This document shows positions 1-14,236 of a stretch of 52,664 bases of DNA, one piece after another (the stretch's first letter is position 1; the number at the start of each line of letters is the position of its first letter). A program made the translations under genes and the position numbers. Where the stretch lies: NCBI GenBank assembly GCA_017444015.1, contig JAFSXN010000052.1:1-52664 (forward strand), given 5' to 3'. A model generated the notes under the pieces. The model made no database searches. It was not told where the DNA came from and saw only the letters and a program-made list of their open reading frames with translations. Source of the stretch: Lachnospiraceae bacterium. Lineage in GTDB: Bacteria; Bacillota; Clostridia; Lachnospirales; Lachnospiraceae.

Positions 1-41
1 CATACAATGCCGATCCCGTTGATCTCTTCCTCAATTCTCAT
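1..41 (-). CDS. Start of an unidentified gene, cut by the window edge
   Basis: An ATG overlaps the TGA of the upstream tcdA gene in an ATGA arrangement and opens a frame that stays open to the window edge. Only 13 residues are visible (MRIEEEINGIGIV), too few to identify the protein. The stop-start overlap indicates translational coupling to tcdA, so the two probably share an mRNA. Confidence 0.5.
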   Translation of the reverse strand, partial: MRIEEEINGIGIV

Positions 42-808
42 GAAATCACTCCCGCCTCCGCCTGTTTCGCCAGATCGTTGATGATCTCTCCCGCAATGAT
101 CAGCCCCGCCACCGAGGGCACAAAGGCCGTTGACCCCGGAATATCCCTCCGAACTGTACATTTTCTTGTCCCCGGCGGGCAGACACAGTGCTGCCTGCAG
201 CTGATGGACATATCCTCCAGGGGTCTTCTCGGCTCCTCCTTCGAATAGACCACCTTCAACGACTCGATCCCCCTTTTTCTGCACTCTCTGCGCATTACCT
301 TCGCCAAAGGACAGATCGAGGTCTCATAGATATCCGCTACTTCAAATAAAGCCGGATTTACCTTGTTTCCCGCACCCATGGAGGAGATCACGGGAATACC
401 GGCCTTTCTTGCGTTCTCGATGATCGCAAGCTTCCCTGTTACGGTATCGATGGCATCCACAATATAATCATATTGTGTAAAGTCAAACTGATCTGCCGTC
501 TCCGGAAGGTAGAACGTCTGATATGTCCTTACCTCACAGTCCGGAAAGATTTCCAGCACTCTCTCTTTGGCGACCTCCACCTTGTATTTTCCGATGGTCT
601 TTCTCGTCGCGATGATCTGGCGGTTCAGATTCGTCAGACAGACCTTGTCATCATCGATCAGGTCCAGAGCCCCGATCCCGCTCCTTGCAAGAGCCTCAAC
701 GACATAGCCCCCCACGCCTCCGATCCCGAATACCGCGACCCTTGCGGCAGCAAATCTTTTCATCGCCTCGATCCCATATAAAAGCTGCGTTCTCGCAAAC
801 TGATCCAA
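38..808 (-). CDS. tcdA: TcdA/CsdL-type E1-like enzyme (tRNA threonylcarbamoyladenosine dehydratase)
   Basis: A 256-residue protein of the ThiF/MoeB/HesA superfamily. The Rossmann loop GIGGVG (residues 28-33), the acidic IDDDKV stretch and the intact NLNRQ motif (60-64) mark an ATP-using adenylating enzyme. The Cys-rich C-terminal part (CRQHCVCPPGTRKC) and the terminal SVAGLIIAGEIINDLA helix match the TcdA/CsdL branch, which cyclises t6A to ct6A at position 37 of ANN-decoding tRNAs and can draw on a CsdA-type desulfurase. The start is a TTG with GGAGG seven bases upstream. The downstream partial gene overlaps its stop. It is separated from the sulfur operon by 0.6 kb of repeats and one plus-strand gene, so it is probably a separate transcript. 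Assignment as TcdA rather than another E1-like protein is strong. Confidence 0.9.
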   Translation of the reverse strand: MDQFARTQLLYGIEAMKRFAAARVAVFGIGGVGGYVVEALARSGIGALDLIDDDKVCLTNLNRQIIATRKTIGKYKVEVAKERVLEIFPDCEVRTYQTFYLPETADQFDFTQYDYIVDAIDTVTGKLAIIENARKAGIPVISSMGAGNKVNPALFEVADIYETSICPLAKVMRRECRKRGIESLKVVYSKEEPRRPLEDMSISCRQHCVCPPGTRKCTVRRDIPGSTAFVPSVAGLIIAGEIINDLAKQAEAGVIS

Positions 809-1387: not shown

Positions 1388-2425
1388 ATGAACCGTTTTG
1401 AATGTGATAATGCCTACGAAAAGGATCTGAAGGAGTTTTCAGAACAGCTTCTTGAAAAAGCAGGAGTTTATTCTCCCGCCGCGGAGCGTGAGATCATGTG
1501 CCTTGCGGACAGCGGAAATCTCATCGCCTGTAAGCTCTACGCGGATCTGATCTACTATAAAAAAGTCCCCCGAAAGGAACCCTTCCGTGAGGCTTTTTCC
1601 CTGTATCTGAAATCCGCGGGGCTTTGTATCGACGAGACCGGTGCCGTTTCATGCGACGGTCCCTCCTATCCTCTGGCCTTCTGGATCGTCGGCTACTATC
1701 TGGTAAACTATAAAAAAGAATCCCTGCTGCAAAGCTGTGAAACCATAGACGGAATCGAGGCTATGTCCGATCCTGACCGCCTTTCGACCGCGCTTGAGCT
1801 TTCGGCCGCCTGTATTCACTATGTTGACGCTCCGGGAGCGTTAAATCTGATCGGACGGATCTTAGCGGAAGCCTCCCGGGAGGAAACGGTTTTTAAAGCC
1901 CTTATGCCTGTTATCCGTGAAAGTCTGAACGTCTCCTGTGACAGCCCGGAAAAATGCTCCGCTCTTTCCGAGGAATATTTTGAAAAGGCCGCTGAAAAGG
2001 GCTATATCTATGCCGCAAATAACCTGGCGGCAAAGGAAGCCGACCGGATCCTCTCCCTTTCGAAAGAGGAGGAACAAAACGGGCTGCTTACGGTGCATCT
2101 TGAAAAATATATCAAAAACCTCAAGCTCTCAGCCGACCGCTTCGAGCCCTATGCCGCTAACCGGCTGGGTCTCTTCTATATGAACGGAGAAATCCGAAAC
2201 GGCGACGACAAAAAGGTTTTCCGGGAATATGTCGATTTCTCTCTTGCGAAAGAATATTTCCTCAAGGCGACAAAATACCCCGATGCCAATTCCGCCTGGG
2301 CTTACTTCAATCTGATCAAATATTTCCATAAGGATTACGATCGCAACATCGAGCTTTTAAATGAGCATATGGACTATATCCGCATGCTCAACCCGAAAAT
2401 CTATGACCTGGCAATCGAGCTGTAG
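1388..2425 (+). CDS. Sel1/TPR-like repeat protein of unknown function
   Basis: A 345-residue soluble, acidic protein with no signal peptide or membrane segment. It is alpha-helical in character and has segments resembling Sel1-type helical repeats, such as AEKGYIYAANNLAAKEADRI and ADRFEPYAANRLGLFYMNGE, each with the alternating small and aromatic residues of such repeats. Such solenoids usually bind proteins. The ATG start has AAGGAG eight bases upstream. It stands alone, flanked by repeats and convergent with the sulfur operon, so context gives no function. I do not recognise a specific family beyond the repeat type. Confidence 0.75.
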   Translation: MNRFECDNAYEKDLKEFSEQLLEKAGVYSPAAEREIMCLADSGNLIACKLYADLIYYKKVPRKEPFREAFSLYLKSAGLCIDETGAVSCDGPSYPLAFWIVGYYLVNYKKESLLQSCETIDGIEAMSDPDRLSTALELSAACIHYVDAPGALNLIGRILAEASREETVFKALMPVIRESLNVSCDSPEKCSALSEEYFEKAAEKGYIYAANNLAAKEADRILSLSKEEEQNGLLTVHLEKYIKNLKLSADRFEPYAANRLGLFYMNGEIRNGDDKKVFREYVDFSLAKEYFLKATKYPDANSAWAYFNLIKYFHKDYDRNIELLNEHMDYIRMLNPKIYDLAIEL

Positions 2426-2455
2426 ACCTGCCGACAGCTGCTTATCATGCGCGAA

Positions 2456-2555
2456 TACCGTTTTCCGTTTCCGTTTTCCGTTTACCGTTTTCGTTTTCCG
2501 TTTGCGTCGACTGTTTTCCGTTGACTGTTTTCCGTTGTCTGTTTTCCGTTTTCGT
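2456..2555. repeat. TTTTCCG-rich low-complexity tract with a 14-bp tandem repeat
   Basis: A pyrimidine-rich run in which TTTTCCGTT recurs about ten times. It includes three tandem 14-bp units (GACTGTTTTCCGTT, the third with GT for GA) at 2509-2550. It separates the convergent ends of the repeat-protein gene and the sulfur operon. A short related piece lies near 3627-3645. Confidence 0.8.
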
Positions 2556-2588
2556 TCTCCTTCACCGTAGCAAACTTCGGGTATACCC

Positions 2589-2834
2589 TCAATCGGGACC
2601 TCTCTCTACCAGGAGATCGTAGGTCCCGTCCTCGTTATCAGTCAGCTTTAAGACCTTATGCCCCTCCTCCTTCAGACTTCTCGGAACGTTTTCCAACGGT
2701 TCCCCGCCGTTTAAATGGATCAGAAGGGTCTGCCCCTCGTCGAGCTCTTCGATTGCAACCTTCGCCTTGACAAAAGTCACCGGGCAGGTCACATCCGTGA
2801 TATCCACTCTCTCATCGATCGTATATTCATCCAT
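2589..2834 (-). CDS. TusA/SirA-like sulfur carrier
   Basis: An 81-residue protein of the TusA (SirA/YeeD) family. It has the family CP motif with the sulfur-accepting cysteine at residue 17 (TCPVTFVKAK), followed by the usual alpha helix and the GGEPLENVP segment. TusA-type proteins take persulfide sulfur from a cysteine desulfurase and pass it on. It is the last gene of the sulfur operon; AAGGAGAG stands about seven bases before the ATG. A 155-base gap holding a worn palindromic repeat separates it from the JAMM gene. It plausibly links the cysteine desulfurase in this operon to the E1/Ubl steps, but the exact partner is inferred. Confidence 0.88.
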   Translation of the reverse strand: MDEYTIDERVDITDVTCPVTFVKAKVAIEELDEGQTLLIHLNGGEPLENVPRSLKEEGHKVLKLTDNEDGTYDLLVERGPD

Positions 2835-2867
2835 TTTCCGTCTCTCCTTGTAAGTATTCCATTATAT

Positions 2868-2965
2868 GCATATTTAATTTTTATTGCCGATCAACCGTAC
2901 TCCGGACTCACAAACGAGATTTCAGAACCTCTCCGTAATCGGAGCAAATCGCGTTTGCAAGTATA
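2868..2965 (+). repeat. Degenerate 103-bp repeat between operon genes
   Basis: Retains TTGCCGATCAACCG, GGACTCACAAACG and the GTATA end, with an altered middle. It lies in the gap between the JAMM and TusA genes, so it is probably transcribed within the operon. Confidence 0.6.
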
Positions 2966-2989
2966 ATTCCTTTTCAGTTCCCAGGCCGC

Positions 2990-3403
2990 TCACCGGATCG
3001 TAAGCTCCTCCTCCTTTGAAACCCCATCCTCAAAATGAAAGGATTTCATTACGGGAGCCTCCTTATCCTGCAGCGACAAAATCATATAGCTGGCCGTTTT
3101 GTCAAAGGACAGCCGCTTATCTTCCTCCGACTGCCTCGCGGGAGATTCCGGGTGGGAATGCCAGTTCCCAAGGGGCTTTAATCCCAGTTTCCTCATATCC
3201 TGAACCGCGGAAAGCTGCTCCTTGGGATCAAGGGTGAAATGCTCGTTGGAATGATCCGTATTCGTCAGAAGATACACCTTTTTGATCTCCCGAAGCTCTC
3301 CCTCGTCCGTCCCCGCGATCAGTCCGCAGGCCTCATCCGGCAGCTCCTTTTTCGCATATGCCAGGATCTTCTCATAGTCCTCCCGCTGCAAAACTACCTT
3401 CAT
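2990..3403 (-). CDS. JAMM/MPN metalloprotease (Mec+/QbsD/HcyD type)
   Basis: A 137-residue single-domain JAMM peptidase. The zinc motif is complete: Glu24 in DEACGLI, then H82-x-H84-x7-S92-x2-D95 in NWHSHPESPARQSEED. Bacterial stand-alone JAMM proteins next to ThiS/MoaD-like carriers remove residues after the C-terminal Gly-Gly (QbsD, Mec+ and HcyD are the known examples). Here the carrier encoded two genes upstream has exactly such a tail. The start chosen is the ATG preceded by GGGAG; an in-frame ATG six codons upstream lacks a site. Two copies of the 103-bp repeat fill the 242 bases before it. Function as the carrier-trimming protease is inferred from context and motif. Confidence 0.88.
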   Translation of the reverse strand: MKVVLQREDYEKILAYAKKELPDEACGLIAGTDEGELREIKKVYLLTNTDHSNEHFTLDPKEQLSAVQDMRKLGLKPLGNWHSHPESPARQSEEDKRLSFDKTASYMILSLQDKEAPVMKSFHFEDGVSKEEELTIR

Positions 3404-3442
3404 AGCTCTCTCCCATCTCAAAATAACGGCACATTCCCAACT

Positions 3443-3545
3443 TATACTGGTTAACGATTTTCGTTGCCGATCAACCGGACTCGCAAACGCAATTCCAGTA
3501 CGTTTACTTTATCAAAAACGGCAATTAATTGCGTTCGCGAGTATA
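3443..3545 (+). repeat. 103-bp palindromic repeat
   Basis: Identical by eye to the copy at 12367-12469. Ends are TATACT and AGTATA. A 16-base imperfect stem pairs ACTCGCAAACGCAATT with AATTGCGTTCGCGAGT, and a smaller AACGA/TCGTT hairpin lies in the left part. It sits inside the sulfur operon between the E1 and JAMM genes. Confidence 0.95.
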
Positions 3546-3640
3546 TACTGGTTACCGCTTTTCATTGCCGATCAATCGCAATTCCAATGTGTCTGCATTA
3601 TCAAAAAAATCAATTGCTCTCGTTCATTTTCCGTTTACTG
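3544..3640 (+). repeat. Degenerate second copy in tandem
   Basis: Begins in the last bases of the previous copy (TATACTGGTTACCGCTTTTC) and lacks the GGACTCGCAAACG block. It decays toward the end of the E1 gene, where a short TTTTCCGTTTACTGTTTTC tract follows. Confidence 0.65.
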
Positions 3641-3645
3641 TTTTC

Positions 3646-4452
3646 TTACTTCATATCACACGCCGCCTGCTCATAATCTACTAACTCCGTGATTGTCGGA
3701 GTATCCGAGCACACCGCGCAGCCCTTCCCTCTTTTCGGAAGCTTTATCTTATGAAATTCCATTTTCAGCGCGTCAAAGGTCAGAAGTTGCCCAACTAAAA
3801 GGTCTCCTGCGCCGGTCAGAAACTTTACCGCCTCCATCGCCTGCAGAGAACCGATCACGCCGCCCATAGCGCCGATCACACCCGCCTGCTTGCAGGTCGG
3901 AACAGCATCCTTTGGCGGGGGATTCTTAAATACACACCGGTAGCACGGACCCTCTCCCGGGATCACCGTCATCAGCTGTCCCTTAAACCGGATGATTCCC
4001 GCATGGGAAAAAGGCTTCTTTGCCATAACACAGGCATCGTTTATCAGAAACTTGGCAGGAAAATTATCGGTCCCGTCGAGAATGAAATCGTAATCCTTGA
4101 TGATATCCAGGATATTTTCACTCGTGATAAATTCGTGATAAGTATTTACCGTGATCTCCGGATTGATCGCAAGCATCGACTCCTTGGCGGATTCTACCTT
4201 CGGCTTTCCGATATCCGGCGTGCTGTGGATGACCTGGCGCTGAAGATTGGAAAGATCCACCTCGTCCGCGTCCGCGATCCCGATGGTCCCTACGCCTGCC
4301 GCCGCAAGATACAGGGCTGCGGGAGCTCCAAGTCCTCCCGCTCCGATGATCAGGACCTTTCCGGCAAGGAGCTTTTTCTGCCCCTTGACACCGATCTCCT
4401 TTAAGATGATATGTCTGGAATAGCGCTCCAGCTGCTCATTCGTAAATGCCAC
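3646..4452 (-). CDS. ThiF/MoeB-type sulfur-carrier adenylyltransferase (HcyF-like)
   Basis: A 268-residue E1-like enzyme that would adenylate the C-terminal glycine of a ThiS/MoaD-like protein. Visible are the GAGGLG nucleotide loop (37-42), the intact NLQRQ motif with Arg72, the GTDNF aspartate region, a PTCKQAG cysteine, and two CxxC zinc pairs (CYRC and CAVC). No rhodanese domain is fused. It starts at a GTG whose GGAGG site lies within the last codons of the carrier gene, so the two overlap by 17 bases and are translationally coupled. That makes the carrier its natural substrate. In the protein-thiocarboxylate methionine route described for Wolinella, this role is called HcyF; placement in that route is inferred from the adjacent metY. 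Confidence 0.9.
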   Translation of the reverse strand: MAFTNEQLERYSRHIILKEIGVKGQKKLLAGKVLIIGAGGLGAPAALYLAAAGVGTIGIADADEVDLSNLQRQVIHSTPDIGKPKVESAKESMLAINPEITVNTYHEFITSENILDIIKDYDFILDGTDNFPAKFLINDACVMAKKPFSHAGIIRFKGQLMTVIPGEGPCYRCVFKNPPPKDAVPTCKQAGVIGAMGGVIGSLQAMEAVKFLTGAGDLLVGQLLTFDALKMEFHKIKLPKRGKGCAVCSDTPTITELVDYEQAACDMK

Positions 4453-4660
4453 TCTGCTGTCCTCCGCCCATAAAATACAGAAACTCTACGACATCCCCGT
4501 CCTGTAAGACCGTCGTATCAAACGTGTCCCGTCCGATAAACTCCTCATTTACCGAGACCGAAACATATTCCGGAGTCTCGACATTCTCTGATACGATCAG
4601 CTCCGAGACCGTCGTCCCGTCCTTGATCTCCTTTACCTCTCCCGCGATAGTAAGCTTCAT
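4436..4660 (-). CDS. ThiS-like sulfur carrier with a C-terminal tail (HcyS-like)
   Basis: A beta-grasp sulfur carrier of about 74 residues. It shows the ThiS pattern (DGTTVSELI near the start, VSVNEEFI in the middle, LQDGDVVEFLYFMGGG near the end). Mature carriers end in Gly-Gly, but this one continues GQQSGIYE, so it must be trimmed before activation, as for QbsE and HcyS. The JAMM protease needed lies in the same operon. The start is the ATG nine bases after AAAGGA; an earlier in-frame ATG lies directly against that site. Its 3' end overlaps the E1 gene. Because metY is immediately upstream, homocysteine synthesis is the likeliest use of the sulfur, rather than thiazole synthesis. Confidence 0.85.
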   Translation of the reverse strand: MKLTIAGEVKEIKDGTTVSELIVSENVETPEYVSVSVNEEFIGRDTFDTTVLQDGDVVEFLYFMGGGQQSGIYE

Positions 4661-4718
4661 TTTTTCCATTCCTTTCTATCTACCTTTTTTATGTCCAATA
4701 TACCGGTCACATATTTTA

Positions 4719-4750
4719 TACTTGCAAACGCCATTAACTGCTGTTTTTAA
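4719..4750 (-). repeat. Fragment of the 103-bp repeat
   Basis: TATACTTGCAAACGCCATTA followed by ACTGCTGTTTTT matches one end of the family with several changes. It lies in the 87-base gap between metY and the carrier gene. Confidence 0.45.
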
Positions 4751-4756
4751 TCTTCA

Positions 4757-5986
4757 TCAGAGACTCGTCCGGATCGCCTCCGTAAAATCACAGATCAGAT
4801 CCTCTGCATCCTCGAGCCCGACACTGATACGGATCGTATCGTCGTATACCTGGGCCGCTTCCTGCTGCTCTCTGGTAGCCCGGACATAGAGCGTGGACTG
4901 CGGATGGATCACAAGCGTCCTTACGTCTCCGATGCTGGTGGCACGGATCGCGTAGTTCAAGCTGTTCAGGATCCGAAAGGCCGTCTCCTTCGACCCTGCC
5001 CGGAAGGTCAGAAGCCCTCCCCCTCTGCCGCCAAGCTGCCTCTCAGCAAGCTCTCTGTACGGATTTTCGGACAGTAACGGATAGCACACCTCGATCTCAG
5101 GAATCTCTGCCAGAGCCTTTGCAAGCGTATATGCTGTCTCACAGATCCGCTCCATCCGGATCCCCAGGGTTTCCAGGCCGATCGTTGTAAGAAAGGCCGT
5201 CATCGGTGCCATACAGCCCCCGATATTGTCCCAGATATCCGTCCGAAGCCGCATGGTATAGGCCAGCTTCCCGAATTTCCGATAGCCGCTTAAGCCCTCG
5301 AAGCGGTCAAAATCCCAGTCAAACCTTGCCGCGTCAACGATGATCCCGCCGATGGAATTCCCGCTGCCGTTGATATATTTGGTCGTCGAATGGATCACAA
5401 CATCCGCGCCCTCTTCGATCGGATGAAAGAGATAGGGAGTTACCGTTGTCGCGTCCACCACCAGAGGAAGGCCTTTTAAATGCACATACTCAGAAACCCT
5501 GCGGACATCCATGATTTCAAGGCTCGGATTACAGAGGATCTCCCCGAAAACCGCCTTGGTACGCTCGTTGATCAAAGGCTCCAGCGCCTCCGGTGTCAGA
5601 TGGGGGACAAATCTGGTCGTGATGCCGAACTTAGTCAGATCCTCAAACAGATCGATCGTTCCGCCGTACAGGTTGCTTCCCGCAATGATCTCATCCCCTG
5701 CGCCAAGAAAATTCAGCAAAGAAAGCGTTACCGCCGTCATTCCCGAAGCACAGGCCACCGCGGCGTTTCCTCCCTCTAACTCGTTGATCCGCTGTTCCAG
5801 CGCCGCTACGGTAGGGTTTGCGACTCTGCTGTAAGCGTAGCCTGCTGCCTTATGCTCAAAGACCCTCGCCATCTCCTCCGCGGAATCGTGCTGAAATGCC
5901 GAAACCTGGGAGATCGGCGGCAGAGTCGAACCCTCCGCGTATTTCTTTACCGCCCTGCCGTGCAGGACTTTGGTATTAAAATTCAT
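4757..5986 (-). CDS. metY: O-acetylhomoserine sulfhydrylase (MetY)
   Basis: A 409-residue PLP enzyme of the Cys/Met metabolism family. It joins O-acetylhomoserine and sulfide, or sulfur delivered as a protein thiocarboxylate, to give homocysteine. The PLP lysine is K203 in HSTTKYINGSG. The N-terminal SQVSAFQH region and YSRVANPTV, typical of the MetY group, are clear, and the C-terminal GLEDAEDLICDF segment is intact. Length fits MetY rather than MetB. It follows the cysteine desulfurase by 36 bases and precedes the carrier, E1 and JAMM genes. That arrangement matches the thiocarboxylate-dependent methionine route reported from Wolinella. Sulfur source in this organism is inferred, not shown. 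Confidence 0.92.
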   Translation of the reverse strand: MNFNTKVLHGRAVKKYAEGSTLPPISQVSAFQHDSAEEMARVFEHKAAGYAYSRVANPTVAALEQRINELEGGNAAVACASGMTAVTLSLLNFLGAGDEIIAGSNLYGGTIDLFEDLTKFGITTRFVPHLTPEALEPLINERTKAVFGEILCNPSLEIMDVRRVSEYVHLKGLPLVVDATTVTPYLFHPIEEGADVVIHSTTKYINGSGNSIGGIIVDAARFDWDFDRFEGLSGYRKFGKLAYTMRLRTDIWDNIGGCMAPMTAFLTTIGLETLGIRMERICETAYTLAKALAEIPEIEVCYPLLSENPYRELAERQLGGRGGGLLTFRAGSKETAFRILNSLNYAIRATSIGDVRTLVIHPQSTLYVRATREQQEAAQVYDDTIRISVGLEDAEDLICDFTEAIRTSL

Positions 5987-6022
5987 AACAGTTTCTTCCG
6001 TTTTCTGTGAACGTTCTGTCGT

Positions 6023-7774
6023 TCAGGCCAGAGAATGCAGGACCTTCACCATAGCGTCGATATCCTCCGGTGAGTTATAGAGCGCAAGTGTCGGCCGTAT
6101 GGAGCCCTCGTAACCGAAGCGTCTGAGAACGGGCTGCGCGCAGTGATGTCCTGTCCGCACCGCGATCCCGTACCGATTCAGCTGCTCTCCCACCTCATCG
6201 TCCGAATATCCGTCCAGTTTAAAGGACAGTGCCGAAGCCTTATCCAAAGCCGTTCCGATCAGGTGCAGTCCCTTGACACGGCGCATTTCCCGCATCGCGT
6301 ACTGCAAAAGCTCCTGCTCCCACTTCTGTACAGCGGGCATACCAATCTCCATCAGATACGTCAAAGCCGCTCCGAGACCCACGGCATCGGCGATACTTCC
6401 GGTCCCCGCCTCAAACTTGTTGGGAAGATCATTGTAAATCGTCCGCTCAAAGGTCACATCCGCAATCATATTTCCGCCGCCATGGTAGGGCGAGGCCGCC
6501 TCAAGCAGCGGGCGTTTTCCGTACACCACACCTATTCCGGCAGGCGCAAAGATCTTGTGTCCGGAGAAGACAAAGAAATCCGCGTCTAACGCCGATACAT
6601 CCACCGGCATATGGGCAACCGACTGCGCCCCGTCGATCAGGACCGGAACACCGTGACTATGTGCGATCCTTATGAGCTCCGCTGCCGGAGTGACTGTACC
6701 TAAGACATTGGAGACCTGTGTAACCGCAACGAACTTCGTCTGCTTCGTAAACAGCCTCTCGTATTCCGAAAGGATCAGCTGCCCCGACTCGTCGCAGGGG
6801 ATCACCTTGATCACCGCTCCCGTTTTCTGCGCCGCCAACTGCCAGGGTACGATATTCGCGTGATGCTCAAGGATCGAAACGATGATCTCATCGCCCGGCG
6901 AAAGCATGGGCCGTACAAAGGCATCCGCCACCAGATTGATCCCCTCCGTGGTTCCCCGGACAAAAATGATCTCGTCCGAAGAGGGGGCTCCGATAAACTT
7001 CCTTACGATCTCCCTCGCGTTCTCATAGGCGTCAGTGGAGCGGGCCGCCAACGTATGTGCCCCTCTGTGCACATTCGAATTTTCCTGCTCATAATATTTC
7101 ACTAACCGGTCGATCACCACCTGCGGCTTCTGGGTCGTCGCCCCGTTATCCAGCCAAACCAGCCGATTCCCGCCGACCCTTTCCGAAAGGATCGGAAAAT
7201 CCGAACGGATCTGCGAAAGTGTTTTGCTGCCGATATAAATATGATCATCCCGGTCGGTGGCGATGGAAGGCCTTGCATTCTGCGAAGACGCAATGAAATC
7301 TCCGGAAAGGGAGGTCGGTGCGTCAATAGCTCTGCTGTTCTTCAGGGCCTCTTCCTGAGATACAACAACCGGAGAATACGAACGGTCAGCCGGAGTTTCC
7401 TTTGTCCCGAGGCTTTTTCCCGTATTCGCAGGGACCCTGATCGCCGGCTCCTCAGTTATACCCTGGTCAAAGGAGAACATGGCGTTTGCCAGCTCCTCTA
7501 ATTCGCCTGCGCTCGGAAGTCCGTACAGCTCTTCAAAGGAAGAAGCATAGGCGGCCTCATCCTGCCCGAAGGGATCATAGTTCGTATCTGCCCAGCTATT
7601 CTGGGCAGATACGGCAGCCGGGGCTGCTTGCGCATTGGAAATGCCCCGGCTGCTTGACTCCGCAGCTTTATTGGTATGCCACTCGCAAGTCTGCGAGCGG
7701 CTGATCGGGAAATTACCATAATTCAGTCCGGATGCTCCGTAGAGCCCAGGATCAATCGTAGTCATAGTACTCAC
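6023..7774 (-). CDS. Cysteine desulfurase with long disordered tail, encapsulin cargo type
   Basis: A 583-residue protein. The C-terminal 400 residues are a SufS-like (group II) cysteine desulfurase: PLP lysine K407 in SGHKIFAP and catalytic cysteine C545 in RTGHHCAQP. It converts cysteine to alanine and enzyme persulfide. The first 180 or so residues are rich in Ala, Ser, Gly and Pro, without a fold I recognise. They contain short motifs spaced by filler (LYGASGLNYG, YDPFG, ELYGLPSAGELEELANAMFS). Desulfurases that travel with family 2A encapsulins carry just such an N-terminal targeting tail; the LA-x-A-x-FS-like motif recalls it. The gene overlaps the end of the encapsulin gene by 23 bases. 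The given start is a GTG; an ATG three codons later, after GGTGAG, is an equally good start. Confidence 0.93.
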   Translation of the reverse strand: MSTMTTIDPGLYGASGLNYGNFPISRSQTCEWHTNKAAESSSRGISNAQAAPAAVSAQNSWADTNYDPFGQDEAAYASSFEELYGLPSAGELEELANAMFSFDQGITEEPAIRVPANTGKSLGTKETPADRSYSPVVVSQEEALKNSRAIDAPTSLSGDFIASSQNARPSIATDRDDHIYIGSKTLSQIRSDFPILSERVGGNRLVWLDNGATTQKPQVVIDRLVKYYEQENSNVHRGAHTLAARSTDAYENAREIVRKFIGAPSSDEIIFVRGTTEGINLVADAFVRPMLSPGDEIIVSILEHHANIVPWQLAAQKTGAVIKVIPCDESGQLILSEYERLFTKQTKFVAVTQVSNVLGTVTPAAELIRIAHSHGVPVLIDGAQSVAHMPVDVSALDADFFVFSGHKIFAPAGIGVVYGKRPLLEAASPYHGGGNMIADVTFERTIYNDLPNKFEAGTGSIADAVGLGAALTYLMEIGMPAVQKWEQELLQYAMREMRRVKGLHLIGTALDKASALSFKLDGYSDDEVGEQLNRYGIAVRTGHHCAQPVLRRFGYEGSIRPTLALYNSPEDIDAMVKVLHSLA

Positions 7775-8711
7775 CTACCTCAACATCCTCAAGCACAGCC
7801 AACGCGTCATCCGCTAAAACAGCCGCCGAGCAGTACAGAGAAAGCAGATAGGAAGCGACTCCCTTATCGTCGATCCCGCGGAAGCGCACCGAAAGTCCTC
7901 TGGAATGCTCATTCTTCAGGCCCGCCTGGAACAGACCGATCACGCCCCGCTTTGCCTCTCCGGTACGAAGCAGCAGAATATTGGTCTTTCCGCTCTGGGA
8001 CTTGGGGTTCTTCAGCCCATCCACCAACAGCTTATCTGTCGGGATGATCGGGATCCCCCGCCAGGTCAGAAAGGTCCCGCCCTGGATATTCGTAGTTACA
8101 GGAGGAACTCCTCTCCTGGTGCATTCTCTCTCAAACGCCGCGATCGCCCTGGGATGCGCAAGGAAGAAGGAAGGCTCCTTCCATACCTTTGTGATCAGCT
8201 CATCGAGATCATCCGGGGTCGGCGCGCCGTTTCTGGTCTGGATCCGCTGGGAATCCGCCGCGTTTTTCAGAAGCCCGTAGTCGTCGTTATTGATCAGCTG
8301 GCTTTCCTGGCGCTCTCTCAGCGACTCGATCGCAAGCCCCAGCTGCTCCTGCACCTGATCATAGGGTGCGCTGTAAACATCCTCAATCGCCGTATTGACG
8401 TTGATGATCGTAGAAATCGAATTCAGCCGATACTCCCTGGGCTCGGTCTGATACTCGACATAACCCGCGGGGATGATATCCGACTTCTTTGTCTGACTGC
8501 ACAGCACATCCAACGGCGTATCTCCCTCGACAACCCGGTTGACCCGGTAGATACCGCTCTCAAGGCCTTTGAACTCAAGGAGCCTTGCGAGCCATTTCGG
8601 CGTCAATGCTCCGTACTGCGGTTTGGTTTTGGTCACATTCGCGAGATTATAGGCTGCTGCCGCGCCTAACGCGTTGATCCCCTGTGCCTGTGTTTCTGTT
8701 TCTTTTGCCAT
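7752..8711 (-). CDS. Family 2A encapsulin shell protein (SrpI-like)
   Basis: A 319-residue shell protein with the HK97 phage-capsid fold. Recognised from the INALGAAAAYNLANVTKTKP N-arm, the LLEFKGLESGIYRVNRV E-loop region, the FFLAHPRAIAAFERECTRRG spine segment and the C-terminal RFRGIDDKGVASYLLSLYCS strand. It is the usual length of family 2A and has no cyclic-nucleotide-binding insert, which separates it from family 2B. Family 2A shells package cysteine desulfurase, and at least one has been reported to store elemental sulfur. The start chosen is the ATG eight bases after GGAGG; an in-frame ATG eight codons upstream lacks a site. It overlaps the desulfurase gene, which fits co-assembly of shell and cargo. 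No other encapsulin gene is seen in the window. Confidence 0.93.
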   Translation of the reverse strand: MAKETETQAQGINALGAAAAYNLANVTKTKPQYGALTPKWLARLLEFKGLESGIYRVNRVVEGDTPLDVLCSQTKKSDIIPAGYVEYQTEPREYRLNSISTIINVNTAIEDVYSAPYDQVQEQLGLAIESLRERQESQLINNDDYGLLKNAADSQRIQTRNGAPTPDDLDELITKVWKEPSFFLAHPRAIAAFERECTRRGVPPVTTNIQGGTFLTWRGIPIIPTDKLLVDGLKNPKSQSGKTNILLLRTGEAKRGVIGLFQAGLKNEHSRGLSVRFRGIDDKGVASYLLSLYCSAAVLADDALAVLEDVEVGEYYDYD

Positions 8712-8794
8712 GTTACTGTCCTCCGTTTCTGGCATAAAATATTGTTATCTCCATAAAATAAAGTAAGTGTCCGTTAAACAGGATATATTTTCTC

Positions 8795-10273
8795 CTACAG
8801 CCATGCGCCTTCGTTGGAAAATACGATATCCTTTGCCGCGTCGATCCCGCCCTTGAGGTTGAACATCGGGCCCTGATAACCGGCCTCTCTCAGCGTATTC
8901 ACCGCTAAGATGCTGCGCTTGCCCTCCTTGCAGATAAATACCGTATCTACCTGCGGGTCCAGCTCCTTCTGCCTTCTTGCCAGCTGGCCAATGGGAATGG
9001 CGATCGCGTTTGGGAAGCGGTGGATCGCCCGTTCGTGCGGCTCTCTGACATCAATGATCGTTACGGGCTCCCCCTGCTCGATCCTTGCCATCAGCTCCTC
9101 CGGTTCGATCCCCTCTACAGGAAGCTCGCTCTCGTCCTCCTTTAAGCCGCAGAAATCCTCATAGTCAAAGTCCTCCACCTCGGTAAGCGTCGGAGCCTTT
9201 CCGCAGATCGGACAGGTATCGCTCTTGTGTACCGAAAGGAGATGGGATCTCAGATACAGACTGTCGATCGTAAGGAGCTTCCCCGAAAGACTGTCTCCGA
9301 TCTCCGCAAGGAGCTTTAACGCCTCTGTCGCCATAATACTGCCTGCGATCCCGGAAAGAGGGCTTATGGTCCCGCCGGACGCGCAGCTTGGAACAAGTCC
9401 CGGAGGCGGGGGCGAGGGAAAAATACATCGAAGACAAGGTCCGTCCCCCACATTCAGGATCGCGACCTCCCCCTCGAACTGATAAACCGCGCCGAAGATT
9501 AACGGGATCCTGTACAGAGCGCAGGCATCATTGATCAGATATCGGGATTTGAACTGATCCGAACAATCTAACACCAGATCGCAATCCTCGATGAGCTCTG
9601 TGATATTCTCAGCGCTTACCGGCGTATTTACCGTCTCGGTTTCGATCGATCTGTCAATATTCCGTATGCTGTCCTTCGCGGAAGCAGCCTTAGGACGGTT
9701 GACATCTCTGAGGGAATGGATCGGCTGGCTCTGAAGGTCACTTACAAGGACCTCCTTTTCATCGATCACCCGAAGGAAGCCGACTCCGGCTCCCGCAAGA
9801 TACTGGATCACAGGAGAGCCCAGGGCCCCTGCCCCGAACACGGCGACTCTCGCGGCCCGAAAACGCTTCTGTCCCTTGACGCCGATCTCCTTTAACATCA
9901 GATGTTTGGAAAATCGATCGATCTCCTTATCGTCTAACTTGATCTCCTTTCTCCTCTCATCGGAGATCAGAACAGGACGCTTTTCCTGCTCCTCCTTATC
10001 CGCCGCTCCTCCGGCAATGACCGGCAAAAGCAGAAGCTCCGTCTCTTTTGGAAGGGGAAGATCCCAGTGATCCTGCGAGGTATGATCCTCGGAACCTGCA
10101 AAGATCCGGATAAATTCCCTGAGTCCTCCATCCTCGGTAAAGAGCGCCTCCTTTGTCTCCGGAAACGCCTTGATCAAAGCATTCAGAACCTCTCTGACGC
10201 TGCCTCCTTCCGCTTCGATATGATCCTGCTTCTGAAAAAAGGAGCGAAGCGTCGCCGCCACATATATCCTCAT
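8795..10273 (-). CDS. MoaD-E1(MoeB)-rhodanese triple fusion
   Basis: A 492-residue fusion. Residues 1-89 are a MoaD-like beta-grasp carrier ending in Gly88-Gly89, which here continues into a linker rather than ending the chain. Residues 118-350 are an E1 domain with GAGALG (147-152), an SDQF aspartate region, and zinc pairs CLRC (280-283) and CPIC (354-357). Residues 390-490 are a rhodanese domain with active-site loop CKEGKRS (Cys448). The E1 motif normally NLxRQ reads DLQSQ, losing the ATP-contacting arginine, so adenylation by this domain is doubtful. It is the first gene after the promoter, with GGAGG seven bases before the ATG. It may carry or relay persulfide; release of the MoaD part would need proteolysis. 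Confidence 0.9.
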   Translation of the reverse strand: MRIYVAATLRSFFQKQDHIEAEGGSVREVLNALIKAFPETKEALFTEDGGLREFIRIFAGSEDHTSQDHWDLPLPKETELLLLPVIAGGAADKEEQEKRPVLISDERRKEIKLDDKEIDRFSKHLMLKEIGVKGQKRFRAARVAVFGAGALGSPVIQYLAGAGVGFLRVIDEKEVLVSDLQSQPIHSLRDVNRPKAASAKDSIRNIDRSIETETVNTPVSAENITELIEDCDLVLDCSDQFKSRYLINDACALYRIPLIFGAVYQFEGEVAILNVGDGPCLRCIFPSPPPPGLVPSCASGGTISPLSGIAGSIMATEALKLLAEIGDSLSGKLLTIDSLYLRSHLLSVHKSDTCPICGKAPTLTEVEDFDYEDFCGLKEDESELPVEGIEPEELMARIEQGEPVTIIDVREPHERAIHRFPNAIAIPIGQLARRQKELDPQVDTVFICKEGKRSILAVNTLREAGYQGPMFNLKGGIDAAKDIVFSNEGAWL

Positions 10274-10292
10274 AGCAAAGCCTCCGAGTTAT

Positions 10293-10319
10293 TAATTCCT
10301 ACCTTTTCTATAGGACTTA
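10293..10319 (-). promoter_or_regulatory. Palindromic operator in the sulfur operon leader
   Basis: Half-sites TAATTCCTA and TAGGACTTA are separated by nine bases and pair with one mismatch. The site starts at the predicted transcription start, where a bound repressor would block the promoter. It resembles sites of Rrf2-type sulfur regulators in spacing, but the regulator is unknown. Confidence 0.5.
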
Positions 10320-10326
10320 TGTGCTT

Positions 10327-10355
10327 ACTATAATATGTTTTACTCAGACTGTCAA
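10327..10355 (-). promoter_or_regulatory. Strong sigma-A promoter of the sulfur operon
   Basis: On the minus strand a consensus -35 TTGACA (10355-10350) and a -10 TATAGT (10332-10327) are 17 bases apart. Transcription would start near 10320, about 47 bases before the MoaD-E1-rhodanese ATG. Confidence 0.8.
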
Positions 10356-10375
10356 CACTTTCCGGAGAGATTTCC

Positions 10376-10876
10376 ATGATGTCAGGCTCAAAGACGGAAA
10401 TTTACTACTATATTGACGTAGCCGATACTATGACGGGGCTCTGCAAAAAATATGATGTCCCGCCCAAAATGCTGCACATCGAGATTACGGAAACCGCGGT
10501 AGCCGACGAGACCTTAAACAACAAGCATCAGATCGAGCTTTTGCAGGAAAGAGGTTTTACCGTCGAGATCGACGACTTCGGGAAGGGCTCTTCTTCCTTA
10601 AGTCTGTTAAAGGATATCAAGGCGGATGTGTTAAAGATCGATATGGGGTTTTTGAACCAGAGTGAGGAATCCGCCCGGGGAAATGTGATTTTGGAATCGG
10701 TGATCGATATGGCAAAGCGCCTCGGAATGGAGGTCATCTCCGAAGGCGTCGAGACCGAAAAGCAGCTTGCCAATCTGACCGAGTTGGGCTGTGATATGTT
10801 TCAGGGGTATTTCTTCTCACGCCCCATTCCTGTCGCCGCCTTCGAAGAGCTGGTCCGGGAAGGGTTTTCGACATAA
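10376..10876 (+). pseudogene. 5'-truncated EAL-domain gene
   Basis: Encodes only the C-terminal two thirds of a c-di-GMP phosphodiesterase domain. Visible are EITETAV, IDDFGKGSSS, LKIDMGF, EGVET and the terminal QGYFFSRP. The first part of the domain, including the EAL motif itself, is missing, so metal and substrate binding cannot be complete. Similarity begins around VADTMTGLCKKYDVPP. A GGAGAG before the ATG leaves open that the fragment is translated. It sits directly upstream of the sulfur operon promoter, divergent from it, and is followed by a good terminator. A remnant of a larger signalling gene is likeliest. Confidence 0.75.
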
Positions 10877-10881
10877 TAACG

Positions 10882-10924
10882 AAAAAACAGCCGCAGAGCT
10901 TTTCTCCCTGCGGCTGTTTTTCTC
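10882..10924. terminator. Bidirectional intrinsic terminator
   Basis: Stem CAGCCGCAG/CTGCGGCTG, flanked by an A run on the left and a T run on the right. It lies between the convergent EAL remnant and the minus-strand gene at 10959. Confidence 0.88.
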
Positions 10925-10958
10925 ATTTGCGCCAGAGGAGAAGTCGCCTCCCTTCAGG

Positions 10959-11183
10959 TTACGTCGGGGACGGCACCTTATATTCAAGGGGTACAACCAG
11001 ATATTCCTTCTTTAAGATCTTCTCCAGCGCGTCCGACGCCCGCTCCGTATCCGGATACTCCACTAAAAGCGTACTGTCATCGTCTAACTGGAAGTAACAG
11101 ATATTCTCATCCACGGTCGCGGAGATCACGTTTCCGTACACCTCCTGGATTCTGAAATTTTTAGATATTCCAATCCGCATCAT
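10959..11183 (-). CDS. Small hypothetical protein
   Basis: A protein of about 74 residues, beginning MMRIGISKNFRIQEVYGNVI, with no membrane segment. It looks like a compact beta-rich domain ending in an amphipathic helix (ERASDALEKILKKE). The start chosen is the ATG seven bases after GGGAGG; a frame open further upstream has no site. I do not recognise the family. It lies alone between a terminator and the truncated DUF1703 gene, so context suggests no role. Confidence 0.6.
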   Translation of the reverse strand: MMRIGISKNFRIQEVYGNVISATVDENICYFQLDDDSTLLVEYPDTERASDALEKILKKEYLVVPLEYKVPSPT

Positions 11184-11296: not shown

Positions 11297-12366
11297 TTAT
11301 TTTACATACCTCTCAATCCTGCAGGTATGGGTCTTGTCCTTTTCGTCATAATTGATTCCGACAAACAAAAGATTGCCTTCATAATGGGAAAGGCAGTCAA
11401 AATATCTCTTCTCTTTGATCTGATCCAGCGCGCTCTCCGTACTGCTGTTCCTCTTCAGTTCGATTATGAGCGCCGGATCCGTCTGTTTGATCGGTGTAAA
11501 GACAACATCGGCAAATCCGCGCCCCGATGTTGCCTCCCTTATGATCGTATATTTATTGATCGCATAAAGATAAGCCAGATAAATGGCGCTCTGCAAAGCA
11601 TCTTCATTGTTATAGCTGCGATTGCCCGTCACATGGATATGACTTTCATCGAGTGCCCTGGCAACCGCTTCTTCGTCGCCGTCAATAGTCGCTTGCAGGA
11701 GCTCTTTAGAAGCACGGATGATATTGTCGGTTTCCTCATACTCATCCACAACCGCTGCAGCGAATTCCCACTCCTGCCATATCTCCCGGTTTGGTATGCG
11801 GCAGGTTCCGTTTTCTTCATCATATGCCAGATATCCGATGTGAAGGAGATACGTAAAGATATCATCACGGGTCGCAAAATCCGTGAGCGTATTCATATAG
11901 GACGTAACGCGGACATCAACCGACTCTCCGGCCATCATACGGATCACAGCGTCCCTCGTACCCTTGAAATTCTCTCTCAGTCGTTCCGCGATGACCTGAT
12001 AGGTGGATGTCTGACTCCAGTAGCTCTTAAACTTCCTGTCCTCAACAGCCATCACCACAGATTCAGGATTATATATTTCCAGACCGTGCTGTCTGTATCC
12101 GTCGTACCAGCTCCTGCACTCCGCGTAATCCAAACCATGCTCATCACAAAGAGTATGCACTTCATCATCGGTAAATCCCACATATTCCGCAAGGTCCCTG
12201 GCATCCAGGATTGTATACTCCCTGAAATTATTCAGCTTTGATTGGATCCGGTCCCGAACCACCGGCAAAATCCCGGTCAGATACGAAAGAGCTATTGCCT
12301 GCCTTACTGTATCGCTCTTAAACAGCCCGTTCAGGAAACTCAGGTATCTGGAAAAAAGCTCACCGC
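11297..12366 (-). pseudogene. DUF1703-type PD-(D/E)XK nuclease-like gene truncated by a repeat
   Basis: Encodes the middle and C-terminal parts of a protein from the AAA-ATPase-like/DUF1703 family. Typical features are ILPVVRDRIQSKLNNFREYT, WYDGYR...IYNPESVV, and a nuclease fold ending with GFADVVFTP and LIIELKR (the D and E-x-K of PD-(D/E)XK). The N-terminal ATPase-like domain of about 200 residues is missing. The reading frame runs back without a start codon (RYLSFLNGLFKSDTVRQAIA is still recognisable) until it meets the 103-bp repeat at 12367. A TTG at 12268 could start a 323-residue product but has no good site. Probably inactive. Confidence 0.75.
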
Positions 12367-12640: not shown

Positions 12641-14236
12641 TCACACCGTCCCTTCAATCAGCGTCTTCCCGCCGATCTCCACCCTTCTCACTCCGGTTTC
12701 CTTGTTCTTGTTGAAGTTAAAGCTCAGCATATAGCCCTTCCTCAGTCCGAAATAGTCGAGGTACTCGCTGATCTGCCGCTCGCCTTTCGCATTGTAGCGC
12801 TCGCCGCGCCAAATCTTTAGCTCGATGATATACTGCTTCCCGAGGTAATCCACCACAACGTCAGTCCTTGTCTGATCCCTCGTCTGCGCCTCGATATAGT
12901 AATTTCCGGTTCCGTTGATGATCGGCCTTAAATATAGAAGAAACAGCTCCCTCCCGTCCTTTTCTTTGAATTTTCCCTTCAACGGGCCAAATACCTTGTG
13001 ATAGGTATCGATGAACCGCTCCAGAATCAGCGACATATCGAGCTGCCCATCATGAATGAAAATATTTTTCTGCGCGGCTCCCTCATTTGCAAATTCGCTG
13101 TTTTGAAGCTCTTCGTCCGAAAGAAACAGGTTATACAGCCGGGTTTCAAAAACCCGATTAACAATAACCGCCTTTCCGTTCTGACTTCGTATAAATCCAT
13201 ACATTTCCATTTGTCGAAGTTCTTCCTGATCCGGATTATAGGAGGCTGTATCCCCCTCCATTAAAATCTTGCGAAGCGTCTCCCGCAGCTCCGGATAATT
13301 CACCAGCTTTCCCGTAAGGGATTCAAAAAGCGTGTTCCGCTCACAAAGCAGACGCTTGACCGCCTCATCAATTCCTACGAGGGTCCAGGCACCGGAAAGC
13401 GAGGAAAACCCCATATCCTCCCAATACAGATCAATGAGCTGACAGATCCGGGACACGAGGAACGGATAACCGCTCGTATAGTCCTCGATGCTCTGAGCGA
13501 TCGCCGTAAGCTCCATCCCCGTCCGATGATCGGTCTCGTACTCCGAAAGCATACCGGCAATCTCCTCCGTACTAAACTCCATCCGTACCAGAAAATCCGC
13601 CGCGATATTCCAGGGACTGTTTACCCTGTGCTGCGCCTCATCCCGTATCTTGCTTTTCAGGTGCCTGATATCGGTCACTCCGGCAAAAATCACCGATTGA
13701 AACGCAGGCGCATCCTCGGTATCCCGGCGGATATAACCTTCGCGAAGCTGCGCCAGAAAGTCTAAGAACACCTGGTTGTTGCTCGCACTGTCCACCTCGT
13801 CGATCATCAGAACGATCGGTTTTTCCGACGCTGCAATCCATTTACGGAATATGCGAAACAGACTGTACATCCGGACACTGCTTCTTTCCTGTCCGACCAA
13901 ACCCTGCAACGCCTCAGCAACGTCTTCGGGAACGTAAAAACCGGAAAAATCGACGAGATCAAGGATAATTTGTGCCATAGCCGCAGAAAAATCCGCCTCG
14001 TCCTGAAACGAATCATATCCAAGGCTCTGAAAATCCAGCGAAAGGACAACATATTCCTTTTTCAGATATTGCTTCAGCGCAAACAGCGTCGTCGTTTTCC
14101 CGTACTGCCGCCCGCGATTGATCGTAAAATACTTTCCCGCGTCCACCATTGTCTTGATCTGCTTCACCCGCTCGGTCAGATCAACCATATAATGCTTTTG
14201 CGGAATACAGACCGCCGTCGTATTAAACTCCTTCAT
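12641..14236 (-). CDS. AAA-like ATPase with C-terminal PD-(D/E)XK domain
   Basis: A 531-residue protein. The N-terminal half is a STAND/AAA-like P-loop ATPase (AAA_35 type) with a Walker A variant NRGRQYGKTTT (about 40-50) and Walker B PIVLMIDEVDSASN (about 140-153). The C-terminal part has RTDVVVDYLGKQYIIELKIW, giving the D...E-x-K core of a PD-(D/E)XK nuclease-like domain. Proteins of this design are common, often in many copies, in gut Clostridia and Bacteroidetes. Mobile-element or defence roles are suspected but unproven. The ATG has AGGAG seven bases upstream. It lies in the decayed accessory zone beside another PD-(D/E)XK gene. Intact by length. Confidence 0.85.
   Translation of the reverse strand: MKEFNTTAVCIPQKHYMVDLTERVKQIKTMVDAGKYFTINRGRQYGKTTTLFALKQYLKKEYVVLSLDFQSLGYDSFQDEADFSAAMAQIILDLVDFSGFYVPEDVAEALQGLVGQERSSVRMYSLFRIFRKWIAASEKPIVLMIDEVDSASNNQVFLDFLAQLREGYIRRDTEDAPAFQSVIFAGVTDIRHLKSKIRDEAQHRVNSPWNIAADFLVRMEFSTEEIAGMLSEYETDHRTGMELTAIAQSIEDYTSGYPFLVSRICQLIDLYWEDMGFSSLSGAWTLVGIDEAVKRLLCERNTLFESLTGKLVNYPELRETLRKILMEGDTASYNPDQEELRQMEMYGFIRSQNGKAVIVNRVFETRLYNLFLSDEELQNSEFANEGAAQKNIFIHDGQLDMSLILERFIDTYHKVFGPLKGKFKEKDGRELFLLYLRPIINGTGNYYIEAQTRDQTRTDVVVDYLGKQYIIELKIWRGERYNAKGERQISEYLDYFGLRKGYMLSFNFNKNKETGVRRVEIGGKTLIEGTV

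Follow-up and report, generated by a model that had tools for sequence, protein, structure and literature searches.

Two described systems lie closest to the operon treated here: the encapsulin and desulfurase pair SrpI/CyD of Synechococcus elongatus, and the HcyS/HcyF/HcyD/MetY set of Wolinella. The operon fills positions 2589-10273 of a 52,664-nt stretch of DNA from Lachnospiraceae bacterium GCA_017444015.1 (contig JAFSXN010000052.1, positions 1 to 52,664, forward; this whole stretch is called the window below), which belongs to a draft genome of 3.77 Mb in 201 contigs (completeness 94%, contamination 5.5%). Gene neighbourhoods indicate that the union of a family 2A shell cassette with an HcyS carrier set is real and conserved. 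In the favoured reading, given roughly even odds (about 0.5) on the comparisons below, the operon is probably sulfur-regulated and the desulfurase in the 2A shell would be the sulfur source of protein-thiocarboxylate homocysteine synthesis.

According to the available text of PMC8049743 and PMC8346489, SrpI/CyD resembles the operon in its shell family, its SufS-type desulfurase, a disordered N-terminal arm and an LANxxF-like motif. Loci of the SrpI/CyD type also have serine acetyltransferase (SAT), rhodanese and cysteine synthase genes as neighbours, SAT and rhodanese being the most enriched accessories (PMC8346489, available passages). In the operon, by comparison with what these sources describe, the rhodanese is instead fused to a carrier and an E1 enzyme, and a JAMM protease, a second carrier, TusA and MetY are added. 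What becomes of the sulfur set free inside 2A encapsulins is called an open question in the part of PMC8049743 that was available, and polysulfide kept inside the shell is one model there.

The operon lacks a sulfite reductase and has a shelled desulfurase and a second carrier system, which sets it apart from the Wolinella pathway. The likeness to that pathway lies in a ThiS-like carrier with a masked GG end, an E1 without rhodanese, a JAMM protease, MetY and TusA/SirA. The Wolinella proteins reportedly form a protein-thiocarboxylate homocysteine pathway, which is said to draw bisulfide from sulfite reductase. For this pathway the available passages of PMC5764234 and PMC6225789 cite Krishnamoorthy and Begley 2011. 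In the accessible text of Iyer 2006 (PMC1779556), type 4c comprises ThiS/MoaD, E1-rhodanese, JAB and cysteine synthase, while type 4e comprises ThiS/MoaD, JAB, E1, SirA, sulfite reductase and O-acetylhomoserine (OAH) sulfhydrylase; ubiquitin-like (Ub-like) domains fused to ThiF are also reported. The two modules of the operon match these types as listed there, with an E1 without rhodanese plus TusA/SirA as in row 4e, but here both are in one operon together with the encapsulin and the desulfurase. The term cysteine desulfurase has no occurrence in the part of PMC1779556 that was available.

Each part of the operon is of a known kind and the combination is new. Sister cassettes with cysteine synthase combine carrier, JAMM and that enzyme in the same way as CysO/CysM/Mec of Mycobacterium tuberculosis, a system that has an unfused carrier and is not known to include a shell or a desulfurase. 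A carrier-dependent cysteine route is named in the available text of PMC6225789. In the searchable literature, with preprints and most subscription papers outside its scope, no encapsulin paper was found with thiocarboxylate, sulfur carrier, Butyrivibrio or O-acetylhomoserine, and encapsulin with homocysteine or MoeB returned only co-mentions unrelated by title. The first-pass annotation of the window had known of no earlier description of the encapsulin-carrier pairing, and within that literature the pairing is indeed undescribed; the neighbour lists of the two encapsulin surveys, which lie outside it, may already name some of these genes.

The shell, the carriers and their partners

All eight frames described in the first-pass annotation are present on the minus strand, each of the family named there (Pfam/NCBIfam). 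They are given below in order of transcription; the HcyS-, HcyF- and HcyD-like labels rest on families and motifs, the comparison with Wolinella having covered MetY only.

8795..10273, minus strand: MoaD~E1~rhodanese fusion (beta-grasp carrier, linker, MoeB/ThiF E1, rhodanese; Pfam ThiF plus Rhodanese)
7752..8735, minus strand: family 2A encapsulin shell protein (SrpI-like; PF19307 320.3 bits, NF041162 489 bits)
6023..7774, minus strand: SufS-type cysteine desulfurase, probable shell cargo (N-terminal arm of about 185 aa with LEELANAMFSF; Aminotran_5 458.6 bits)
4757..5986, minus strand: MetY-like O-acetylhomoserine sulfhydrylase, carrier-linked subfamily (PF01053, Cys_Met_Meta_PP, 354.4 bits)
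4436..4669, minus strand: HcyS-like ThiS carrier (end FLYFMGGG plus QQSGIYE; TIGR01683 63 bits, ThiS 49.0 bits)
3646..4452, minus strand: E1-like adenylyltransferase (MoeB/ThiF, without rhodanese), HcyF-like (ThiF 292.2 bits)
2990..3403, minus strand: JAMM/JAB metalloprotease, HcyD-like, HSHPESPARQSEED (Prok-JAB 75.1 bits)
2589..2834, minus strand: TusA/SirA-like sulfurtransferase with CPVTF replacing CPxP (PF01206 64.9 bits)

The desulfurase start (ATG 7765 or GTG 7774) overlaps the encapsulin end, and the carrier gene overlaps the E1 gene. The 327-aa shell protein passes the curated family 2A equivalog NF041162 (489.2, cut-off 380) and stays below the cut-off of the 2B model NF041163 (386.1 against 400), which upholds its first-pass assignment to family 2A. 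SrpI-like is its sole Pfam match, with no cNMP-binding domain, and its related solved structures are 8t6r and 6x8m. In the desulfurase, the match to the curated NCBIfam cargo model spans model positions 152-623 and the N-terminal arm is mostly unmatched. LxxLANxLFPDL-like stretches comparable to the LEELANAMFSF of this arm were seen by eye in most of 12 aligned relatives, and the cargo motif of a 2A desulfurase is given as LARLANEFFS in the accessible part of PMC8049743. The RxGHHCAQP cysteine motif is kept in 75/77 relatives. The desulfurase is probably the cargo of the shell, into which it would be loaded.

The N-terminal MoaD part of the fusion scores 42.4 bits with NCBIfam SAMP1, under the cut-off of 60. 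Its carrier tail PVIAGG occupies residues 84-89 and the active-site stretch of the rhodanese is CKEGKRS. GG ends the MoaD part in 76/76 fusions (AGG is invariant among 21 aligned rows), and all 76 have CxxGxRS in the rhodanese. A structure model predicts three folded parts with a mean pLDDT of 75 and low confidence at 86-90 (the GG tail), between folded parts. The second carrier had been described as ThiS-like with a C-terminal tail, which agrees with its end and with its relatives: FMGGG is followed by at least one residue in 59/59 extracted sequences, and the GG end is likewise masked in 20/20 HcyS carriers from clusters not joined to a shell (YMGGG in L205). Because these GG ends are masked by extra residues, a protease would have to unmask them. 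The JAMM pattern is present in 53/53 relatives of the JAMM in the list above (JAMM1) and in 70/70 of a second one found in other operons (JAMM2); the single JAMM of the window may serve both carriers. The TusA-like protein is a member of PF01206, as had been annotated, although the usual TusA motif is CPxP and this protein and its relatives (51/51) have CPxTF instead.

A molybdopterin or thiamine role of the carriers was set aside, the operon being without other such genes; the search of the 80 related neighbourhoods described below did not extend to moaE, thiG and the like.

Conservation of the union across genomes

The near sample consisted of the best 80 of 540 encapsulin relatives by identity to the window, with one genome per species scanned. 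These are mostly titled Lachnospiraceae, Butyrivibrio, Pseudobutyrivibrio and Eubacterium, and many come from rumens. Neighbourhoods were mapped by tblastn with the window proteins plus the SAT, cysteine synthase, Rrf2, JAMM2 and sulfite reductase of relatives. The full-flank set was limited to the 37 loci flanked by at least 6 kb on either side (43 were dropped), and a gene was scored if it lay on the same strand no more than 7 kb away. The fusion and the desulfurase are present in all 37 loci, JAMM2 (typically directly before the fusion) in 36, SAT in 33, E1 and JAMM in 30 each, HcyS and TusA in 29 each and MetY in 27. Rrf2 (12), cysteine synthase (6) and sulfite reductase (3) are rarer. All five of HcyS, E1, JAMM, TusA and MetY occur together in 27/37.

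The typical order is (Rrf2)-MetY-JAMM2-fusion-encapsulin-desulfurase-SAT-HcyS-E1-JAMM-TusA. The HcyS set is found upstream, in a different order, in L009, L035 and L057, and downstream, with sulfite reductase, in L049. On this mapping at least three gene orders join the HcyS set to the shell cassette; given this variation, the union is not one frozen block. Neither SAT nor JAMM2, both usual in the operons of relatives, adjoins the operon of the window; a related serine acetyltransferase is present elsewhere in its genome.

In an even sample of 397 genomes of the family (334 genera), the 2A encapsulin was found in 10 and the fused carrier in 11, namely the same 10 plus G672, in which a contig end interrupts the fusion. 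With a threshold of 98 bits, HcyS is found in 45/397 (54 at E<=1e-8), among them all 10 encapsulin genomes. Fisher tests, uncorrected for kinship, gave 5e-19 for shell plus fusion and 1e-10 for shell plus HcyS. The genus-mate of the window in this sample, G499, is without encapsulin, fusion carrier and HcyS. Chance adjacency of shell and carrier genes is rejected on the neighbourhood counts and this co-occurrence.

Conservation of the neighbourhood, proposed as a check in the first-pass annotation, was thus found in both samples. That annotation had also treated the encapsulin pair and the homocysteine set as one system, which these counts bear out for their union as neighbours, but the HcyS set proved separable. 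From these counts it is the MoaD-E1-rhodanese cassette that constantly accompanies the shell, and this cassette usually includes a JAMM of its own, SAT, and either MetY or cysteine synthase. Some genomes have two encapsulin loci (L176/L177 in G442, L020/L023, L022/L024); of the two shell copies in G442, one is joined to HcyS, and about 20 kb separate the second from another HcyS cluster.

The separability bears on a rival explanation, in which the encapsulin cassette and the HcyS set share a sulfur-limitation regulon and are joined for control only, the carrier of MetY being loaded from sulfide. The sets are apart in 7/37 full-flank loci, and of 12 encapsulin genomes without HcyS within 7 kb of the shell, 10 have it elsewhere (G707 and G708 have none), both of which this explanation would accommodate. 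It is nevertheless unlikely: among the 397 genomes only G672 has the fusion without a shell, and there the gene runs off the contig, and five genomes with joined operons have no sulfite reductase match (see below).

The shell protein search matched 32 plasmid records, some weakly and 2B-like, and five regions were examined. Plasmid pACIB of Aliarcobacter cibarius (Campylobacterota) encodes a 71% identical shell in a cassette with cysteine synthase, JAMM, a stand-alone MoaD ending in IAGGI, E1, rhodanese, shell, desulfurase, cysE and cysK. This cassette holds two insertion sequences (L254 3460-4677 and 6214-7596), one of them between E1 and rhodanese. In the other four regions no carrier or JAMM was found by annotation and tblastn. 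Their gene orders are cysK-epsC-shell-desulfurase-rhodanese in Synechococcus, shell-desulfurase-cysE in Azospirillum, a 41% MetY-like gene followed by rhodanese-epsC-HTH regulator-shell-desulfurase in Variovorax, and shell-desulfurase-Rrf2 in Methylosinus. In the encapsulin tree, which carries long-branch warnings, the Aliarcobacter shell is sister to the Lachnospiraceae shells (96/85), and L006 and L007 branch far away.

In the phylum sample, three non-family genomes have a PF19307 match, none with the cassette within 20 kb. A phylum-wide carrier search found matches in 37/299 genomes at E<=1e-5, only that of the window exceeding 100 bits. The weaker matches, several in long open frames, suggest that other MoaD fusions may exist.

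Throughout the Lachnospiraceae-Aliarcobacter branch the constant partner of the shell appears to be the carrier-E1-rhodanese-JAMM cassette. Since the deep branches L087, G669 and Aliarcobacter have cysteine synthase, the cassette was perhaps first associated with this enzyme, and the HcyS-MetY set would have been joined to it later. In the same deep encapsulin branches the cysteine synthase precedes the JAMM, as would be expected if the fused MoaD cassette, as the true shell partner, made cysteine in the manner of CysO/CysM/Mec, with the HcyS set sharing the rhodanese and homocysteine a late addition. This explanation is very doubtful: the gene directly before JAMM2 is MetY in 47/70 loci and cysteine synthase in 2 (counting the best cysteine synthase match per locus).

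Sulfur source, product and alternatives

The first-pass annotation overlooked sulfite reductase, in this family the usual neighbour of HcyS sets, which is mostly absent from the joined operons. Unjoined clusters were represented by 20 HcyS loci from 34 shell-less genomes with strong HcyS (G672 was left aside); they have JAMM in 19, sulfite reductase and TusA in 18 each and MetY in 14. Among shell-joined HcyS operons with full flanks, sulfite reductase was found in 3/29 (L049, L056, L067). The difference, 18/20 against 3/29, has a Fisher value of 2e-8, uncorrected for kinship. Sixteen encapsulin genomes were searched with PF01077. Seven of them carry a joined operon that lacks sulfite reductase, and in five of these (G661, G538, G636, G302, G307) there is no PF01077 match genome-wide. 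In the other two, that of the window and G305, sulfite reductase is found elsewhere; in the former it sits on a 3.2 kb contig beside a rhodanese-TusA-like fusion. Taken with the sulfur source described for Wolinella and the listing of Iyer 2006, the counts of 18/20 and 3/29 fit a swap of sulfur source, the desulfurase taking the place of sulfite reductase.

The product side rests on MetY. In a quick tree of 109 MetY rows, a fully supported branch (100*) splits 77, including that of the window, from 32 others, a split partly built in by presorting the rows at 45% identity to the window's MetY. Carrier nearness was checked afterwards: 74/77 on the carrier side have a carrier gene, HcyS or fusion, no more than 4 kb away, against 5/32 on the other side, the loci of the remaining three of the 77 being too short to tell. 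The shell label changes at least four times on starred branches, the labels "joined" and "unjoined" within the 77 being rough (the genomes behind L112-L114 have the shell, and the coordinates of L114 suggest that it is probably the same joined operon as L049). In this tree the enzyme belongs to a subfamily apart from other MetY of the same genomes. The genome of the window has two strong members of the family, neither grouping with MetB/MetC-sized ones. The masked GG carrier tails and the separate MetY subfamily fit a thiocarboxylate route of the Wolinella type.

The mechanism proposed for the operon would run as follows. Inside the shell the desulfurase would draw sulfur off cysteine as a persulfide, to be handed to the rhodanese domain of the fusion and to the TusA-like protein. 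Both carriers, the MoaD part and the HcyS-like protein, would have their GG ends adenylated by the E1 domains and converted into carrier-COSH by the sulfur. MetY would then couple the thiocarboxylate to O-acetylhomoserine, while in sister operons cysteine synthase may couple it to O-acetylserine. JAMM would first unmask the carrier GG end and later release homocysteine. Sulfur would in this way pass from cysteine to homocysteine with no cystathionine step, and a shelled desulfurase would stand in the place of sulfite reductase. Cargo loading, sulfur flow, the substrate of MetY and the roles of the protease are all inferred. A stricter form is put forward tentatively, at somewhat less than even odds: that the shelled desulfurase is the dedicated donor of the thiocarboxylate relay, carrying sulfur from cysteine to homocysteine without cystathionine or free sulfide, that the shell replaces sulfite reductase, and that the fused carrier-E1-rhodanese docks the shell to the pathway.

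If true, this would add a cystathionine-free transsulfuration route. The operons offer a concrete acceptor (rhodanese-E1-carrier) and a product for 2A-shell sulfur, and the shell-carrier join in gut and rumen relatives of the Lachnospiraceae suggests where this sulfur goes. Carriers of the operon include named Lachnospiraceae isolates, among them XBB2008, AB2028 and G41 (G661, G302 and G307), which have no PF01077 match, and the question is thereby open to culture.

Several observations weigh against the shelled desulfurase as donor for homocysteine synthesis. The 80 loci include near-copies (e.g. L077, L081, L082) and their genomes are related, not independent; in the full-flank set HcyS is absent within 7 kb in 8/37 and the whole set in 7. 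The desulfurase falls below the cut-off of the cargo model (762.2 against 800), and the available text of PMC8049743 reports no growth phenotype for a Synechococcus knock-out of the shell and desulfurase genes. MetY is below the cut-off of the curated TIGR01326 (391 against 495 bits), and its best PDB match is 7kb0 (329 bits), not 3ri6 (289 bits), which we take to be the Wolinella enzyme. The genome of the window need not depend on the route: it retains a sulfite reductase, and a second, ordinary MetY that falls among the 32. It has no second JAMM over the cut-off. Finally, the desulfurase destroys cysteine while sister operons encode SAT and sometimes cysteine synthase, which make it, and this is unexplained by a one-way flow.

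A rival reading has a two-way flow. Sulfur storage is ascribed to 2A shells, and the shell could be a store of elemental sulfur or polysulfide filled when cysteine is plentiful, from which the carriers, SAT, cysteine synthase and MetY later rebuild cysteine and homocysteine. SAT in 33/37 and cysteine synthase in 6/37 full-flank loci, both also present in Aliarcobacter, agree with such a store, as does the polysulfide model in the available part of PMC8049743. By itself, however, it leaves unexplained why joined operons so seldom include sulfite reductase, and it is considered improbable, to about the same degree as joining for control only.

Upstream region and neighbouring genes

Two features precede the first gene:

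10298..10314, no strand: palindrome CCTA-N9-TAGG, candidate operator, between the -10 box and the first start codon
10327..10355, minus strand: sigma-70-like promoter TTGACA-17-TATAGT (read 10355-10327), 11/12 consensus matches

One strong promoter had been annotated for the operon. The site is there, but promoter-like sites in the region are no more frequent than in shuffles (6 against 6.1), and a further 10/12 site precedes tusA at 2890-2861. JAMM is separated from the gene before it by a gap of 242 nt, measured to ATG 3403 (224 to an upstream TTG), and tusA by one of 155 nt; the same gaps in relatives have medians of 16 and 6 nt. Both window gaps contain repeats, with 44-nt copies (66-100% alike) at 2863-2906, 3443-3486 and 3544-3587, and a run of GTTTTCC-like direct repeats lies just past tusA at 2455-2560. 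A single transcript for the eight genes is likely. No Rfam elements were found over 2300-11000 at gathering scores.

A CymR-like upstream pattern, AWTCC-N8-16-GGAWT, was rejected (1/71 against 0.82 in shuffles); the palindrome was found from the k-mer table of that search. CCTA-N9-TAGG occurs in the 400 nt that precede the operon's first gene in 43/69 related loci, where 0.44 would be expected (1 per 65,536 bases at uniform base content). Its usual form is AAACCTATTGACATAGTAGGTAA, and in that form it overlaps a TTGACA. Only the 9-nt gap is enriched, at 26/71 against 0-2 for other gaps from 5 to 14, the palindrome shuffles having preserved base content, not dinucleotide content. The copy in the window is the only exact one in its 52.7 kb. 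Judged by position, other genes for MetY, cysteine synthase and desulfurase-like proteins are also preceded by copies. The palindrome is a candidate operator of a sulfur (Rrf2/CymR-like) regulon, for which a CymR-like Rrf2 repressor would fit, and the Rrf2 of the operons would be the protein that binds it. A palindrome shared upstream fits common control of both modules; the copies before ordinary sulfur genes may mark a wider sulfur regulon and so also suit a joining for control only.

A rhodanese-TusA-DsrE-like fusion of about 350-370 aa (domains assigned by eye) accompanies sulfur genes in L033, L225 and others (cluster c13), and in L033 it is directly preceded by the palindrome.

Elsewhere in the window, a TcdA-like E1 at 38-808 (minus strand; 164 bits against a curated cut-off of 304) apparently has no tie to the operon. 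Divergent from the operon, 10376-10876 (plus strand) encodes an EAL domain fragment (profile positions 104-236), possibly a truncated phosphodiesterase. Two minus-strand genes at 11297-12268 and 12641-14236 encode a PD-(D/E)XK nuclease-like protein and an AAA plus PD-(D/E)XK protein. A single 977-aa frame at 25925-28858 (minus strand) combines amino acid permease, histidine kinase and receiver domains. The nickel insertion protein and AIRC-like protein at 49992-51365 and 51744-52499 (minus strand) are probably larC and larB; lar cofactor synthesis is another sulfur consumer.

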